Shown here piece after piece: positions 9,900 through 27,959 of a stretch of DNA of 35,560 nt. The translations under genes were made by a program, and so were the position numbers. Every line of letters begins with the position of its first letter. Position 1 is the stretch's first letter. This DNA is from Candidatus Paceibacterota bacterium (GTDB taxonomy: Bacteria; Patescibacteriota; Minisyncoccia; Minisyncoccales; RBG-13-42-11), in assembly GCA_016782605.1 (NCBI GenBank), contig JADHYE010000005.1:1-35560 (forward strand), written 5' to 3'. The notes beneath the pieces were generated by a model. It searched no databases and was not told the DNA's origin. It was given only the letters and a program-made list of their open reading frames with translations.

Positions 9900-10457
9900 A
9901 TGAACGACAAACAAAAAATAAAAGAAATGGAAAAAGAACCAATAAAAAATAGTGTAAAAACAGATAACTCTAAAGAAACATTGCAAGCTATCTTTGATAA
10001 CGTCAGGGACGGTTTGGTTATTTTAGATAAAACAGGAAAAATCATCCAGATAAGCGATAGCCTCATTAGAATGGGAGGCTATTCTAGAAAAGAAATCATT
10101 AGTAAACGTTTGGGACTTATGACAATGTTTTCTCCTAAAAGTTTAAGTCAAATGCTGATTCATTTTATAGGAACATTAGCCGGCAACGAAGCAATGCCTT
10201 ATGAAATTGAAGGAATGACAAAAAGCGGTAAAAAACTGTTTGCTGAAGTTTCCGGCAATTCCTTGAGATTGAAAGGAAAGATTGTTGGTGTGGTGGCGAT
10301 TCTCCGCGATATTACCGAACGCAAAAAAATAGAAGATGAATTGAAAGAAAAGAATGAAATGCTAGAAAAGTTCAATAAGTTTGCCGTGGGTAGGGAACTA
10401 AAGATTATTGAATTAAAGAAAAAAGTAAAGGAATTGGAAAAAAGGGGGATGAAATAA
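9900..10457 (+). CDS. Single PAS-domain protein with C-terminal coiled coil (copy 1)
   Basis: 185 residues. PAS domain about 28-145 (LQAIFDNVRDGLVILDKTGKI at its start, AILRDITERKK at its end), followed by a heptad-rich coiled coil (DELKEKNEMLEKFNKFAVG...). No kinase, cyclase or output domain follows. PAS domains bind small ligands or cofactors and mediate dimerisation. The C-terminal part, with FNKFAVGREL, resembles the linker that joins PAS to kinase cores in CPR-type sensor kinases, so this looks like a detached sensor module. It is paralogous to the next gene. Role unknown; it could form heterodimers with a kinase or with its paralogue. Confidence 0.75.
   Translation: MNDKQKIKEMEKEPIKNSVKTDNSKETLQAIFDNVRDGLVILDKTGKIIQISDSLIRMGGYSRKEIISKRLGLMTMFSPKSLSQMLIHFIGTLAGNEAMPYEIEGMTKSGKKLFAEVSGNSLRLKGKIVGVVAILRDITERKKIEDELKEKNEMLEKFNKFAVGRELKIIELKKKVKELEKRGMK
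10285..10401 (+). repeat. 117-base identical block, copy 1
   Basis: Identical base for base to 10881-10997, including third codon positions, while the flanking parts of the two genes differ at many sites. It covers the end of the PAS domain and the start of the coiled coil. Confidence 0.9.
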
Positions 10458-10522: not shown

Positions 10523-11059
10523 ATGAGGAAAGAATCGCAAAAAGATAACATAAAAACAGACAACTCAAAGGAAACATTAGAAGCTATATTTGATAGCGTC
10601 AGAGACGGTTTGGTTATGTTAGATAAAACAGGGAAAATCACTAAGATAAGTAAAAGCCTTGTTAAAATGGGGGGTTATCCTGCAGAAGAGCTTGTTGACA
10701 AGCGTTTGAAGTTTATGACAATGTTTTCTCCTAAAAGCTTAGGTCAAATACTGATGAATTTCGTTAGAACAATAGCCGATAACGAAATAATGCCTTATGA
10801 AGTTGAAGGGGTGACAAAAGACGGCAAAAAATTATTCGCTGAAATTTCTGGCTCTCCTTTGAAAGTACGGGGGAAAATTATTGGTGTGGTGGCGATTCTC
10901 CGCGATATTACCGAACGCAAAAAAATAGAAGATGAATTGAAAGAAAAGAATGAAATGCTAGAAAAGTTCAATAAGTTTGCCGTGGGTAGGGAACTAAGGA
11001 TTATTGAATTAAAGAATAAAATCAAAGAACTGGAAAAGAAATTGGAGAAAATAGAATGA
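10523..11059 (+). CDS. Single PAS-domain protein with C-terminal coiled coil (copy 2)
   Basis: 178 residues; paralogue of the preceding gene with the same plan: PAS about 20-138, then coiled coil ending in KNKIKELEKKLEKIE. The two proteins match along their length but differ at many positions in the first two thirds and are identical across the block from GVVAILRDITERKK to FNKFAVGREL. It has its own -10 box. The metallopeptidase gene starts 4 bases after its stop. No output domain. Duplication followed by gene conversion is the simplest reading. Confidence 0.75.
   Translation: MRKESQKDNIKTDNSKETLEAIFDSVRDGLVMLDKTGKITKISKSLVKMGGYPAEELVDKRLKFMTMFSPKSLGQILMNFVRTIADNEIMPYEVEGVTKDGKKLFAEISGSPLKVRGKIIGVVAILRDITERKKIEDELKEKNEMLEKFNKFAVGRELRIIELKNKIKELEKKLEKIE
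10881..10997 (+). repeat. 117-base identical block, copy 2
   Basis: Second copy of the block at 10285-10401, offset by 596 bases. Confidence 0.9.
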
Positions 11060-16676: not shown

Positions 16677-17639
16677 TTATTCTAGGGTTGAACCGGCAAA
16701 GTCGGAATGGCCCCGTAAAAATTCTTCTGCATTTGATTCTTTTTTACCTTCTATTTGCAGTTTTTCAATAACCAGAAAGTCTTCTTTGCACTGCACGCCT
16801 ATTTCGTTTTGAGGAACAACTAAAACCTTACCTATATCATATCTCTTTTGTTGGGATGATTTGTAAACTCTTGTTTTTAAAATCTTTATCTTTACTGTTT
16901 TGCCTTTATTCTGCCAGAAAGTATATGTGCCAGGCCAAAGAGAAAAAGCTCTTACTTTTCTTTCTATTTCTTCGACTGGTTTCTGCCAATCAACTTTTCC
17001 GTCTTCTTTTTTTAATATTTTAGTGTAGGTTGCTCTTTTCTCGTCTTGAGAATTGGGCTCTATTTCATTATTTATCCATTTTGGAATGATATTCAGTAAT
17101 AATTTTGCCCCTAAGTCAGCTGTTTTTTCAGTCAGTTGCTCTGCTGTTATTTCTTCTGATATAGAAAGCCTAGAAAGGGAAACTATCTTGCCGCTGTCTA
17201 GTTTTTCATCCATTAGCATTATGGTTACGCCTGCTTCTTCGTCTCCATTCAAGATTGCGTATTGGATAGGGGATGGACCTCGGTATTTTGGCAATAAAGA
17301 AGGATGAACGTTCAGAAAGCCAAAACTTGGAATCTCCAATATGTCCTTTGGAATTAGTTGGCTGTAGGCTGCAACAACTACCAAATCAGGCTTTAAGTTT
17401 TGGATTTCCGATTTAATGTCTTTAATATTTTCTGGCTGAGCTACTGGAATTTTATATTTCTCAGCTGTCATTTTCACTGGCGAAGGAGTAATAACTTGTT
17501 TTCTGCCGACTGGCTTGTCTAACGATGTGGCAACCAAAACCGGCTTGTATTCGCTTTGGCAAAGCTTATCTAAAATAATAGCGCCGAATTCTGGCGTCCC
17601 AATAAATACTATTTTTAGACCTCTTAACATATAAATCAC
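16677..17639 (-). CDS. fmt: Methionyl-tRNA formyltransferase
   Basis: Formylates initiator Met-tRNA using 10-formyl-THF; cytoplasmic. About 320 residues. Motifs: VFIGTPEFGA near the N-terminus, NVHPSLLPKYRGPSPIQYAI with catalytic Asn-x-His and SLLPKYRG (formyl-THF site) near 110-130, then the C-terminal OB-like domain beginning around 205. GTG at 17639 overlaps the upstream stop (GTGA), suggesting coupled translation; ATG at 17630 is an alternative start closer to the usual N-terminus. The neighbouring efp is another translation gene. Secure. Confidence 0.94.
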   Translation of the reverse strand: MIYMLRGLKIVFIGTPEFGAIILDKLCQSEYKPVLVATSLDKPVGRKQVITPSPVKMTAEKYKIPVAQPENIKDIKSEIQNLKPDLVVVAAYSQLIPKDILEIPSFGFLNVHPSLLPKYRGPSPIQYAILNGDEEAGVTIMLMDEKLDSGKIVSLSRLSISEEITAEQLTEKTADLGAKLLLNIIPKWINNEIEPNSQDEKRATYTKILKKEDGKVDWQKPVEEIERKVRAFSLWPGTYTFWQNKGKTVKIKILKTRVYKSSQQKRYDIGKVLVVPQNEIGVQCKEDFLVIEKLQIEGKKESNAEEFLRGHSDFAGSTLE

Positions 17640-18118
17640 TTAACAATACGCCACTCTATTTCTTCTTCTTTCCCGGCGAATTCCAGCCAGTCGTTCTCAG
17701 GAGAAATGACGTACCATTTTTTCTTGGATTCTGACCAAACCATCTGATTCCCTTGGAAATACGGCTTTTTGACTATTTCTTTCGGCTTCAATTTATCCAA
17801 TTCCAACCATTTTTTAAAAACCGTTTCAATGGCATAATCCAAACCTCTGGACCTTGCCCATTCAGCTACTTTGTTGATGGCGTTCTTTGCTTTTCTAGCA
17901 GAGCCTGCTAATTCTAAAAGCTGTTTTGCCGGCCTGGTAAATCTAGAATAGATTATCTTTTTCTTTTTGGCGTCTTTTTTAATCTGTTCCAGATTTAAGC
18001 CTTTGCTGTAGAAATAACAATTGACTATTTCCTGAATTTTTGTTTCTTCCCGCTGTTTTTTGCGCCGCTTCGGCGCATCCGCCGATGAGGTGGACTTTTT
18101 TTTTGACTTATCCTTCAT
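17636..18118 (-). CDS. Uncharacterised basic protein
   Basis: 160 residues, strongly basic and helical. N-terminus about 1-25 is low complexity and lysine/arginine rich; residues 9-19 (STSSADAPKRR) come from a palindromic element of family (b). The rest has a helical core (ARKAKNAINKVAEWARSRGLDYAIETVFKKWLEL) and a C-terminal part with QMVWSESKKKWYVISPENDWLEF. No family recognised. The charge suggests nucleic-acid binding, but no motif supports it. It overlaps the AMMECR1 gene by 11 bases upstream and fmt by 4 bases downstream, so it belongs to the same operon. Confidence 0.6.
   Translation of the reverse strand: MKDKSKKKSTSSADAPKRRKKQREETKIQEIVNCYFYSKGLNLEQIKKDAKKKKIIYSRFTRPAKQLLELAGSARKAKNAINKVAEWARSRGLDYAIETVFKKWLELDKLKPKEIVKKPYFQGNQMVWSESKKKWYVISPENDWLEFAGKEEEIEWRIVK
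18062..18093 (-). repeat. Palindromic element family (b), in the unknown basic gene
   Basis: On the plus strand: GCGCC-GCTTC-GGCGC, AT, CCGCC-GATGA-GGTGG: two adjacent hairpins, 32 bases. It matches the reverse complement of 18531-18562 at 30 of 32 positions. It is read in frame, but in the opposite orientation to the AMMECR1 copy. Confidence 0.85.
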
Positions 18119-18698
18119 ATTTTTCTGCTATAAAGCGATAAATGAATACTTCTTCTTTTTCGGGGTTGATGCCTGCTTTTTGGCAGGCAATGGAAAACTG
18201 CTCCTCTGGTACGTTGATTCCTTCCAAATCAGGCAGTAAAAGCCCTGTTTTGGAAGAAACATTGCCGTCAAACACCGGATCTTCATTAGGAAAGGCAAAA
18301 GGCGCTGTTTTTACAATTATACCAAATTTTTTAGGATTTAGCTCGTTAATATTCTCGATTAATTCAGGTTCGCTTAAGACGTAAATAGTGTATGAAAGAT
18401 AGGGGATGTCGTCTTTTTTGATAGGCTCAAACCGGTAATCTTCGGTAGCTGCGGCAATGGCGTTATTGATGATTTCTTCAGCTATATTTATTTTCGTGGG
18501 CAGATAAGTGCCGATGCAGCCTCTTAGTTCCCGCCTCATCGGCGGATGCGCCGAAGAGGCGCATTTTTCGATGGTAACGAAAACGCCTGCTCTTTTCTCT
18601 AAAAATTCTTTAGGCAGGTTTGTCGGAGGAGCAATGATTTTCCTTTCTATCAGATAATTTTCTACAGTTTGTTTGGCAAGTAAAACGTATTGGTTCAT
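18108..18698 (-). CDS. amrA: AMMECR1 domain protein (AmmeMemoRadiSam system protein A)
   Basis: 196-residue AMMECR1 protein. Family motif LRGCIGTYLP at 58-67, preceded by AGVFVTIEK, followed by NNAIAAATEDYRFEPI and YTIYVLSEPE. Human AMMECR1 is a disease gene of unknown biochemistry; prokaryotic members occur with Memo and a radical SAM enzyme, both encoded nearby. Between VTIEK and ELRGCIG lie about ten extra residues (CASSAHPPMR), encoded by palindromic element family (b); relatives usually have only a few residues (such as HKNG) there. The insertion sits directly before the most conserved motif. It overlaps the Memo gene by 4 bases. Confidence 0.88.
   Translation of the reverse strand: MNQYVLLAKQTVENYLIERKIIAPPTNLPKEFLEKRAGVFVTIEKCASSAHPPMRRELRGCIGTYLPTKINIAEEIINNAIAAATEDYRFEPIKKDDIPYLSYTIYVLSEPELIENINELNPKKFGIIVKTAPFAFPNEDPVFDGNVSSKTGLLLPDLEGINVPEEQFSIACQKAGINPEKEEVFIYRFIAEKYEG
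18531..18562 (+). repeat. Palindromic element family (b), in frame in AMMECR1
   Basis: Plus strand: CCGCC-TCATC-GGCGG, AT, GCGCC-GAAGA-GGCGC; two perfect 5-bp hairpins side by side. Inverted relative to the copy at 18062-18093. It encodes ASSAHPPMRR on the minus strand. Confidence 0.85.
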
Positions 18699-19351
18699 TT
18701 TAATTTAAAGTTTGCTACTAAATATCCAACGCCGAAAGGGAATTCATATGATAAGATTTCTGGCTGCCAAACTTGCCCTGAGGACATTCGGCTGAGCTCA
18801 GTCGAAGCCCTTGTCGAATTGGCTTCCAGCATGCCTAATAAAAAGCAGATGGATCTTAAGCCACATTCTCCGGCTTCCGGGTATTTGTTATCCAGTTTAA
18901 GAATATTTTCAATATCTTTCTTTTTTAAAGATTCAATCAGTTCTTTGTCGAATTTCCCGCCTTGAGGGTTTAATCCGTAAGGACCGTCTTCTTTTAAGCA
19001 ATGGGAAAGATCTCCTGAGGCAATTAAAGCGTATTTCTTGTCTTCTGCCAAATTCTTATATATTCTTTTTCCTTCGTTAAAATAGAATTCCGGGGATTCT
19101 GAACCAGTTAAAACCATATCAATCTTTCCCTGAAAGTTATTAGCCAGAAAGTAAAGAGGCACCTCAAACCCCCAATCAGGATGAGGAGAGGAAATGACAA
19201 TCTGCTGGGGATTTGTTTTTTTAAGTTCTTTTGATAAAACGTAAAGGCTTTCAATTGTTGTTTTAACTTTCTCTCTGTCTTCTTTTGAACCAACAGAAGG
19301 CAGGATTATCGGCGGGTGAGGGGATATGAAAGCTGAAACTATATTTGACAT
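18695..19351 (-). CDS. amrB: Memo/LigB-family protein (AmmeMemoRadiSam system protein B)
   Basis: 218 residues. The Memo/extradiol-dioxygenase (LigB) superfamily fold is indicated by ISPHPPIILP at the N-terminus, SSPHPDWG near 54-61, and ASGDLSHCL near 111-119, which carry the candidate metal-binding histidines and aspartate; the C-terminus SYEFPFGVGYLVANFKL is typical. The reaction is unknown; Memo binds metal in other organisms. First gene of the leftward operon. Residues about 177-194 (STRASTELSRMSSG) are encoded by a palindromic element and interrupt the junction between GMLEA and WQPEILSYE. Confidence 0.82.
   Translation of the reverse strand: MSNIVSAFISPHPPIILPSVGSKEDREKVKTTIESLYVLSKELKKTNPQQIVISSPHPDWGFEVPLYFLANNFQGKIDMVLTGSESPEFYFNEGKRIYKNLAEDKKYALIASGDLSHCLKEDGPYGLNPQGGKFDKELIESLKKKDIENILKLDNKYPEAGECGLRSICFLLGMLEANSTRASTELSRMSSGQVWQPEILSYEFPFGVGYLVANFKLK
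18787..18806 (+). repeat. Palindromic element family (c), in frame in the Memo gene
   Basis: TTCGGCTGAGCTCAGTCGAA, palindromic at 9 of 10 base pairs, with GGAC/GCCC-like flanks. Read on the minus strand as ASTELSRM. Only one copy is in the window, but the form (CTGAGCTCAG core with TTCG/CGAA ends) is that of a dispersed palindrome. Confidence 0.65.
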
Positions 19352-19423
19352 TTTGTTTTGGAAATATTAACTTCTAATAATACGTTATTTTGTACCTTAT
19401 TTTAATATATTGGAGGTATGTTG

Positions 19424-20017
19424 ATGCTGAAAATTCGAGATAAGGATAGACTTTTTGCAGAGAAAGTAACCTCGGTATTCAATCACTGTTCTGTCGCTTG
19501 TCTTTTTAGAGAGGACTACGGATGCAAAGATTGTCTCTTTTTCAATTTCGCCTTAGACCTAGAGGCAAATAATGCTTTATTCCTGACCCTGCAAGACCTT
19601 ATTAGCAGATTAGAAGAGCATTATGACCGCAAGCCTTCTCAGGCTGCCTTCCTCAAGTGTTGGGCATACAGCGTATTGGTGATTTATTCTGCAAACGGCG
19701 AAAAACTTCCATTCCTTAATCAGGAAATAGCCAACAAAATGATAAGAAAAGCTCAAGTCAATCCCACGAAATTTTTTAATCGGGCGAGAAGGAAACTTCT
19801 TAAAATGAACGCCCTATGGTTTGAAGAATTACGGAGAATGTGCCAAAGAGCTGATATCAATGGCTGTTTCTGGAACTCGATTGTTCTTTTCCTAGCTCTT
19901 TTGCTAAAAGCCAAGGAATGGGAAGAATTCTCGAAAAAAACAGAAGTACAGGAAACACCAGAAGAACTTCATCAGGCAATATTAACCCACCTTCGACAGG
20001 AAAGGAGAGCTTCATAG
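19424..20017 (+). CDS. Uncharacterised protein between the AmmeMemoRadiSam genes
   Basis: About 197 residues, soluble, mostly helical. The N-terminal part has a cysteine cluster (HCSVAC, then YGCKDCLFF near residues 24-40) that could bind zinc or a cluster; the middle and C-terminal parts are helical with many basic residues (KFFNRARRKLLKMNALWFEELRRMC). No family recognised. Start: GGAGG lies 7 bases before the ATG at 19424, whereas the ATG at 19418 would be only one base away, so 19424 is preferred. It is transcribed away from the Memo operon and towards the radical SAM gene, sharing a terminator with the latter. A functional link to that system is only positional. Confidence 0.6.
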   Translation: MLKIRDKDRLFAEKVTSVFNHCSVACLFREDYGCKDCLFFNFALDLEANNALFLTLQDLISRLEEHYDRKPSQAAFLKCWAYSVLVIYSANGEKLPFLNQEIANKMIRKAQVNPTKFFNRARRKLLKMNALWFEELRRMCQRADINGCFWNSIVLFLALLLKAKEWEEFSKKTEVQETPEELHQAILTHLRQERRAS

Positions 20018-27351: not shown

Positions 27352-27411
27352 ATGGCTAAAAAAATACTAATAGCAAGGATCTTTCACTTCGTTCAAGATT
27401 CTTTTAATTAA
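27352..27411 (+). pseudogene. Remnant of a response-regulator start
   Basis: ATG GCT AAA AAA ATA CTA ATA encodes MAKKILI, the usual first residues of a receiver protein, then leaves the family sequence (ARIFHFVQDSFN) and stops at 27409. The intact regulator begins MKKILIIEDE at 27533. GGATCTT...AAGATTC, a further hairpin, follows the break at about 27378-27402. A second receiver gene was probably lost, or the original start was displaced by inserted elements. Confidence 0.5.
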
Positions 27412-27416
27412 AATTT

Positions 27417-27529
27417 GGCGAAGAGGAATTTATCCTCTTCTTCACCTTCGCTTCCATAAATGGAAGCTCGGCGAGGCGAATAGGAATTTATCCTCTTCTT
27501 CACCTTCGCTTCCATAAATGGAAGCTCGG
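27417..27529 (+). repeat. Double-hairpin element family (d), two tandem copies
   Basis: Two 55-base copies (27417-27471 and 27475-27529) separated by CGA; one mismatch was found between them. Each has GGCGAA, a hairpin around GGAATTTATCC, TTCACCTTCG, a perfect hairpin GCTTCCAT-AA-ATGGAAGC and CTCGG. The second copy ends 3 bases before the response regulator ATG. Confidence 0.9.
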
Positions 27530-27532
27530 CTT

Positions 27533-27898
27533 ATGAAGAAAATTTTGATAATAGAAGACGAAAAAATATTAAGGGAAATGTACCACGATAAATTCGTCCA
27601 GGCCGGCTTTGACATTACTCTGGCGAACTCAGCAGAAGAGGGAATTGACCTTGTTTCAAAGGTAAAACCGGATTTAATTCTTCTTGATATTCTGCTTCCT
27701 AAAACAAACGGAATCAGTTTCTTAACCAAATTAAGGGAAAAACCGGAATTCGATTCTTTGCCGGTAGTTGCTTTTTCCAATTTTGACAGCCCGGAAACAA
27801 AAAAAGCCGCCTTTAATCTTGGCGTAAAAGATTACTTGATCAAGACAAATTTCACTCCGAAAGAAATCATTGAGAAGATTAAAAGCTATCTTAAATAA
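27533..27898 (+). CDS. Single-domain response regulator
   Basis: 121-residue receiver domain. Acidic pair Glu8-Asp9 (IIEDE), phosphorylation site Asp52 (LILLDILLP), Ser in VVAFSN and the conserved Lys in KDYLIKTN: all catalytic positions present. No output domain, so it works by protein-protein contact or as a phosphate carrier, like CheY or Spo0F. Partner of the upstream histidine kinase by position. The start is set at ATG 27533 because the upstream in-frame MEARL is inside the repeat element. The 5' region is wholly made of the family (d) repeat; no ribosome site. Confidence 0.9.
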   Translation: MKKILIIEDEKILREMYHDKFVQAGFDITLANSAEEGIDLVSKVKPDLILLDILLPKTNGISFLTKLREKPEFDSLPVVAFSNFDSPETKKAAFNLGVKDYLIKTNFTPKEIIEKIKSYLK

Positions 27899-27904
27899 TA
27901 ATTG

Positions 27905-27959
27905 GGCGAAGAAGATGAAATCTTCTTCTTCACCTTCGCTTCCATAAATGGAAGCTCGG
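27905..27959 (+). repeat. Double-hairpin element family (d), third copy
   Basis: 55 bases: GGCGAAGA, hairpin GAAGAAGAT-GAA-ATCTTCTTC, TTCACCTTCG, GCTTCCAT-AA-ATGGAAGC, CTCGG. Hairpin 1 has different bases from the tandem copies on both arms, with pairing kept. The aspS ATG follows one base later. Confidence 0.9.

Follow-up and report, generated by a model that had tools for sequence, protein, structure and literature searches.

Rickettsia palindromic elements (RPE; Ogata et al., 2000, 2002) are repeats of about 150 bp, of which RPE-4 and RPE-6 are described as REP-like, while the RPE sequences of R. conorii are reported to end in CGTC (PMC10969869, PMC3733652). As far as these accounts go, the element described here resembles the RPEs in that palindromic repeats lie in frame in many unrelated protein genes, are translated and are apparently tolerated. 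It differs in being a 34-nt dimer of two hairpins, found in Patescibacteria, without a CGTC tag and located in tRNA fragments as well. Because terminal tag and length, rather than a comparison with the RPE consensus, set it apart, we have not filed it as a member of that family.

GTAG/CGTC REP dimers occur inside open reading frames, for example in Opitutus terrae and R. conorii, and REP insertions at the same site of recB are known from two Xanthomonas species (PMC3733652); Patescibacteria are not among the phyla named in that REP survey (PMC3733652). Short hairpins, almost spacer-free dimers in some families and intragenic positions, including uvrA (PMC3733652), are shared with the element studied here, whose terminus, however, lacks GTAG/CGTC and which has five copies in the genome. 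REPIN/RAYT systems offer an inverted hairpin doublet with alternative long-hairpin and clover folds and compensatory changes (PMC3116915). Whereas REPINs are extragenic with spacers of tens of bp (PMC3116915), all five copies in our genome are intragenic. Of the REP/REPIN traits, the element thus shows a doublet foldable both ways, with covariation for the two-hairpin form only, and shows neither the tag, nor, in this genome, a RAYT gene flanked by the repeat, nor a mainly extragenic location at high copy number; given the missing tag, we have not filed it with the REP elements either. The double-hairpin or repetitive hairpin-forming elements of mitochondria (Allomyces, sponges; PMC2800124, PMC7218506) also consist of two tandem hairpins, are presumed mobile and sometimes lie in genes; they are organellar and the present element is bacterial, the likeness noted here being one of layout. 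The target-site duplication of classical, IS-derived MITEs was not seen. Small UPF0213-type GIY-YIG endonucleases are related to the element by association only, their genes adjoining copies at tRNA loci. Literature searches returned no report of palindromic repeat elements in CPR and nothing relevant for Parcubacteria in combination with palindromes.

The window, i.e. the whole stretch of 35,560 nucleotides of Candidatus Paceibacterota DNA analysed here, has its strongest inverted repeat between 18061-18093 and 18531-18563 (33 nt, 94%). After inversion, 18062-18093 and 18531-18562 are identical at 30 of 32 positions; the two inverted 32-base copies of the original prediction are thus confirmed. 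The natural unit is 34 nt (Table 1) and is composed of two adjacent, GC-rich 17-nt hairpins with 6-bp stems and 5-nt loops and no spacer between them.

Table 1. Coordinates of the element copies, their host genes and a neighbouring palindrome in the window.
Feature	Position	Strand	Remarks
Double-hairpin copy 1	18061..18094	.	TGCGCCGCTTCGGCGCA TCCGCCGATGAGGTGGA; on the gene strand gives STSSADAPKRR near the N-terminus of the 160-aa protein
Double-hairpin copy 2	18530..18563	.	CCCGCCTCATCGGCGGA TGCGCCGAAGAGGCGCA; inverted relative to copy 1; covariance model E 1.3e-11
Uncharacterised 160-aa protein	17636..18118	-	Copy 1 lies in its Lys-rich N-terminal tail; the core is conserved from about residue 20 onwards
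AMMECR1 / AmmeMemoRadiSam system protein A	18108..18698	-	Pfam PF01871 4e-38; NCBIfam TIGR04335
LigB/Memo-like protein (AmmeMemoRadiSam system protein B)	18695..19351	-	Carries a 13-residue insertion with a palindrome
Different palindrome TTCGGCTGAGCTCAGTCGAA	18787..18806	.	Within the 13-residue insertion NSTRASTELSRMS of the LigB/Memo-like protein

The 160-aa host of copy 1 gave no match in Pfam and NCBIfam searches; its orthologues are present in 203 of the 246 genomes of the order. On the gene strand copy 2 encodes CASSAHPPMRR, which lies in the beta-hairpin loop (about residues 46–56) that precedes the LRGCIG motif of AMMECR1. The peptides originally read from the two copies (STSSADAPKRR, and ASSAHPPMRR before LRGCIG) are therefore correct as given. 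The element had also been described as read in opposite directions in adjacent genes and as compatible with more than one frame. The element is indeed inverted, but both genes are on the minus strand, and since the element itself is near-palindromic the two window copies share a single codon phase; codon phases other than theirs occur in other genes. The insertion NSTRASTELSRMS in the Memo-like protein is missing from most homologues, and hence three consecutive genes carry palindromic inserts. The palindrome TTCGGCTGAGCTCAGTCGAA within it, found in the third gene of this run, is of another kind than the double hairpin.

The whole genome (527,624 bases; 38.5% GC over the stretches read) was searched with the pattern GCGCC N5 GGCGC AT CCGCC N5 GGYGG, with free loops and up to 3 mismatches. 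The search, which had been proposed with the original prediction, returned four copies, while the reversed control pattern returned none in the genome. A covariance model added a fifth copy with altered stems, located in TatD. All five are intragenic, the hosts being the 160-aa protein, AMMECR1, NusA, S16 and TatD. At E<=0.01 the model matched 36 of the 247 genomes of the order, and at 1e-6 it matched 10 of 380 genomes sampled through the phylum; named matches in the genome collection include Nomurabacteria, Magasanikbacteria and Moraniibacteriota. In the window's own family the element is present in only one of eight relatives, and this patchiness fits gain and loss better than simple inheritance. 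The element is a compact family with conserved structure, of which the reduced Patescibacteria genomes carry few copies each. Matches in Streptomyces, Dyella, Acidobacteria and Deltaproteobacteria look like chance GC-rich palindromes and were excluded from the alignment.

The alignment comprised thirty copies, drawn from this order and from the genome collection. The consensus, TCCGCC-TCNTC-GGCGGA / TGCGCC-GANGA-GGCGCA, is a 34-nt inverted dimer in which 8 of the 12 stem pairs show changes on both sides and 96.4% of cells are paired. None of 500 shuffles reached the observed pairing or covariation values, and slid controls were far lower. The search pattern works against this result, as it scores two mismatches for a compensated change and only one for a broken pair. 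Loop conservation, on the other hand, partly reflects selection by the search because the 30 sequences were gathered with loop-fixed patterns. A single long hairpin across the unit is the lowest-energy fold of some copies but was rejected as the conserved structure, its paired cells and covariation being no better than those of shuffles. With covariation for two hairpins and none for the long hairpin, the conserved object is the hairpin pair.

Most AMMECR1 orthologues read approximately FVTIEK-DGE-LRGCIGTYL where FVTIEK-CASSAHPPMRRE-LRGCIGTYL is found here; those compared are mostly 57–68% identical and, in the form FVTIEK-xGx-LRGCIG, have the segment missing. The segment is thus not conserved in homologues without the element, and a reading of AMMECR1 as carrying merely a conserved protein segment was ruled out, as it was for TatD. 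TatD orthologues read KS-xK-VVAIGE, the genome of the window having ESRLIGGPSKRR at that place. The TatD insert is missing from 23 of 25 orthologues; the second carrier (G028) belongs to another family, and its copy occupies the same codon but differs by compensated changes in the stems. Both TatD copies are 33-nt forms. The NusA peptide is missing from the orthologues of all eight family members, and copies in UvrA and PNPase of other genomes appear as gaps in alignments to solved homologues. In AlphaFold models, the AMMECR1 insert forms a loop between strands 38–46 and 56–64, and that of TatD a lower-confidence loop between helix 92–100 and strand 114–122. The net gains, +9 aa in AMMECR1 and +10 aa in TatD, correspond to neither a clean 33 nor a clean 34 nt because the nearest relatives are of other genera. 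A same-genus empty site for PNPase (G118 versus G119) yielded no clean junction, the loop there being already long and unrelated.

In four other genomes (L142, L145, L149, L166) AMMECR1 orthologues have unrelated extra sequence in exactly the same loop, which is therefore a permissive site. This extra sequence is partly palindromic-looking. Same-site recurrence was also seen with the element itself: TatD copies occur at one site in two families, and a similar peptide is present at the N-terminus of the 160-aa protein in three. Old inheritance with many losses could alternatively account for this recurrence.

Hosts checked with Pfam include FtsZ in three genomes, NusA in two, RpoD, GyrA, an Asp-type tRNA synthetase of class II, L23, S16 and a GtrA-like protein. 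In FtsZ, NusA, RpoD, GyrA, the synthetase, L23 and S16 the copies are mostly outside Pfam domains, and copies in proteins are mostly in tails or loops (FtsZ, RpoD, GyrA, L23, UvrA, PNPase). Positions differ among orthologues: NusA has its copy in the middle in one genome and in the tail in another, FtsZ at the N-terminus in one and in the tail in two. According to a tally made by hand, 14 of 19 homology-checked coding copies are in one phase (p = 3.8e-4 versus one third), giving SASSADAPxRR or its equivalent from the inverted orientation. Some N-terminal copies could sit upstream of the true start codon. The freedom from stop codons, which had been taken as a strong sign of selection, proved a weak argument: at 70% GC, shuffled copies keep 80% of frames open versus 87% observed, an excess that is small but real (P about 0.004). 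Phase bias and the placement in tails and loops are better evidence for filtering. A GyrA fragment (L101:1477-3033) with the element near its N-terminus also contains a LAGLIDADG_3 domain, which suggests an intein.

Duplicated tRNA fragments provide the cleanest evidence on insertion. The stretch GACCACT^ATGCGACC of the intact tRNA-Ser in L046 recurs as a duplicate that is interrupted at the caret by the 34-nt element. The position (tRNA-Ser 13^14, in our own count) is the same in L063, L071 and L203, and filled/empty pairs in all four loci have the junction CAT^AGTGG. A further pair, in tRNA-Gln of L201, has the junction GGGATC^GTCTAATGG. The insert is exactly 34 nt in each of these five intra-locus paralogue pairs. 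Target-site duplications were found neither in the five pairs nor across 46 element junctions; the flanks are A-rich (65% A). Since 34 is not divisible by three, an intragenic insertion must either be adjusted by one base or be terminal, and the many copies with A-rich flanks in N- and C-terminal tails, as well as the 33-nt forms in TatD, would fit such a need. In another region, L020:1533-2448, a LAGLIDADG-type endonuclease gene is flanked by intact tRNA-Gln on one side and, on the other, by a tRNA-Gln 5' fragment immediately preceded by the element.

Further repeats were noted in the window and in a hairpin scan that covered stretches of the genome totalling about 430 kb. A repeat with the inner hairpin CTTCGCTTCCATAAATGGAAGCTCGG is present in three copies at window positions 27403-27529 and 27891-27959, with similar-looking hairpins at C1:44876. 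The hairpin CTGTTGAGG-N5-CCTCAACAG occurs three times in the genome (G000:C2:18243, C2:20233, C7:3110). A lone half-element, TCCACCTCATCGGCGGA, lies at G000:C1:44910-44926 between ribosomal protein L11-like and NusG-like genes, beside other palindromes. Window positions 9933-10232 and 10529-10828 form a 300-nt direct duplication (78% identity, spacing 596) that spans two ORFs.

The reading we favour, to which we assign a probability of roughly 0.7, is that the two sequences in the window represent a small non-autonomous mobile element, a palindromic dimer of the REP/RPE-like kind that is tolerated as a passenger peptide. That a repeated double hairpin has inserted in genes, as originally proposed, is supported. 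Such an element would spread at low copy number in Patescibacteria, adding exactly 34 nt without target-site duplication. Its insertions would persist where harm is small, namely in intergenic DNA, duplicated tRNA fragments, disordered tails and surface loops, and those in protein genes would do so with the frame kept or restored. Within genes it would be translated, mostly in the phase K-(S/C)ASSADAPxRR-K, as an 11-residue passenger peptide. We infer that the copies have moved, presumably as extruded hairpins or single-stranded DNA and with the help of an enzyme acting in trans, and that the peptide is tolerated, not useful. The element is best called a new family of palindromic dimers within an already known type of element.

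Its mobilisation might tentatively be attributed to small UPF0213-like GIY-YIG endonucleases encoded beside tRNA genes, acting on the double hairpin, e.g. as an extruded cruciform. Units of a hairpin, a GIY-YIG gene and a duplicated tRNA half would then be autonomous, and those copies that stand alone in protein genes would have been moved in trans. At six loci (L046, L063, L071, L074, L203, L204), all adjoining tRNA genes or fragments, a GIY-YIG gene is found no more than about 300 bp from the element; among control loci the count is 0 of 88 (315 kb). In four lineages the element is at 13^14 of a tRNA-Ser 5' fragment matching that of the host, directly upstream of the GIY-YIG start codon, and the intact tRNA-Ser comes after the GIY-YIG gene. 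The copy in L074 is degenerate and lies in a tRNA-Gln fragment; that in L204 lies in a tRNA T-arm fragment. The proteins match Pfam GIY-YIG at 9e-16 to 1e-21, with UPF0213 as the nearest solved structures, and a literature search found no report of such a hairpin, GIY-YIG and tRNA unit in bacteria. Two GIY-YIG genes of the window's own genome each lie directly 3' to a tRNA-Ser gene, with tandem AT-rich hairpins in front of them (L036:15081-15475, 19248-19615). However, a nearby GIY-YIG gene is missing for most copies and for every coding copy examined, the four tRNA-Ser cases may go back to one origin, and tRNA neighbourhoods may simply attract both element and endonuclease genes. That lone 34-nt hairpins throughout the Patescibacteria are mobilised in trans by tRNA-targeting GIY-YIG units, with in-frame peptides in essential proteins as the outcome, is a somewhat more doubtful extension. 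The tandem hairpins at both L036 tRNA-Ser loci are alike, and the sequence following tRNA-Ile in L066 begins with the same CAACGTACAAA.

Movement by a RAYT, with the copies as REPIN-type elements transposed as single-stranded hairpin DNA, is unlikely. The layout of an inverted hairpin dimer with two alternative folds is shared (PMC3116915), the missing target duplication fits single-strand transposition, and a single RAYT-like gene, an IS200-like Y1 gene of 237 aa that scores 25.6 bits in Pfam versus a cut-off of 23, is present in the genome of the window. In this genome, the sole one searched for the gene, no copy of the element adjoins it, though, and GTAG/CGTC tetranucleotides are within 8 nt of only 2 of 46 elements, the case in L203 belonging to the tRNA-Ser flank. 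Selection could instead act on the hairpins as RNA or DNA sites with a function of their own, in transcript stability, the control of translation or RNase processing close to tRNAs, the peptide being secondary. Compensatory stem changes would agree with this, as would several copies immediately 5' of tRNA genes or tRNA-like sequence (L020, L066, L069, L074) or near protein N-termini. Yet host genes are unrelated, presence is patchy, positions vary among orthologues and no known family was matched in Rfam, which makes this explanation quite improbable. Hardly credible is the assumption of no insertion at all, the copies being a conserved protein segment or chance GC-rich coding sequence. The N-terminal peptide shared by the 160-aa protein of three families would be in its favour; orthologues at 57–80% identity lack the inserted segment, however, the element is also in unrelated genes and tRNA fragments, and the reversed pattern gave 0 matches in the 247 genomes of the order.

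In-frame palindromic insertions have been described as peculiar to Rickettsia, and REP dimers within a few other bacteria; a family in Patescibacteria widens this process. Its hosts include FtsZ, RpoD, GyrA, NusA and ribosomal proteins, and genes of essential proteins are among those hit. The association with tRNA genes and GIY-YIG endonucleases provides a directly testable candidate for the missing enzyme and, if mobilisation by GIY-YIG units is true, these would represent a mobile system of bacteria that relies on neither RAYT nor DDE transposases. With exact junctions and a clean unit of 34 nt, the family lends itself to studying how selfish palindromic DNA moves and how short peptides are acquired by proteins.
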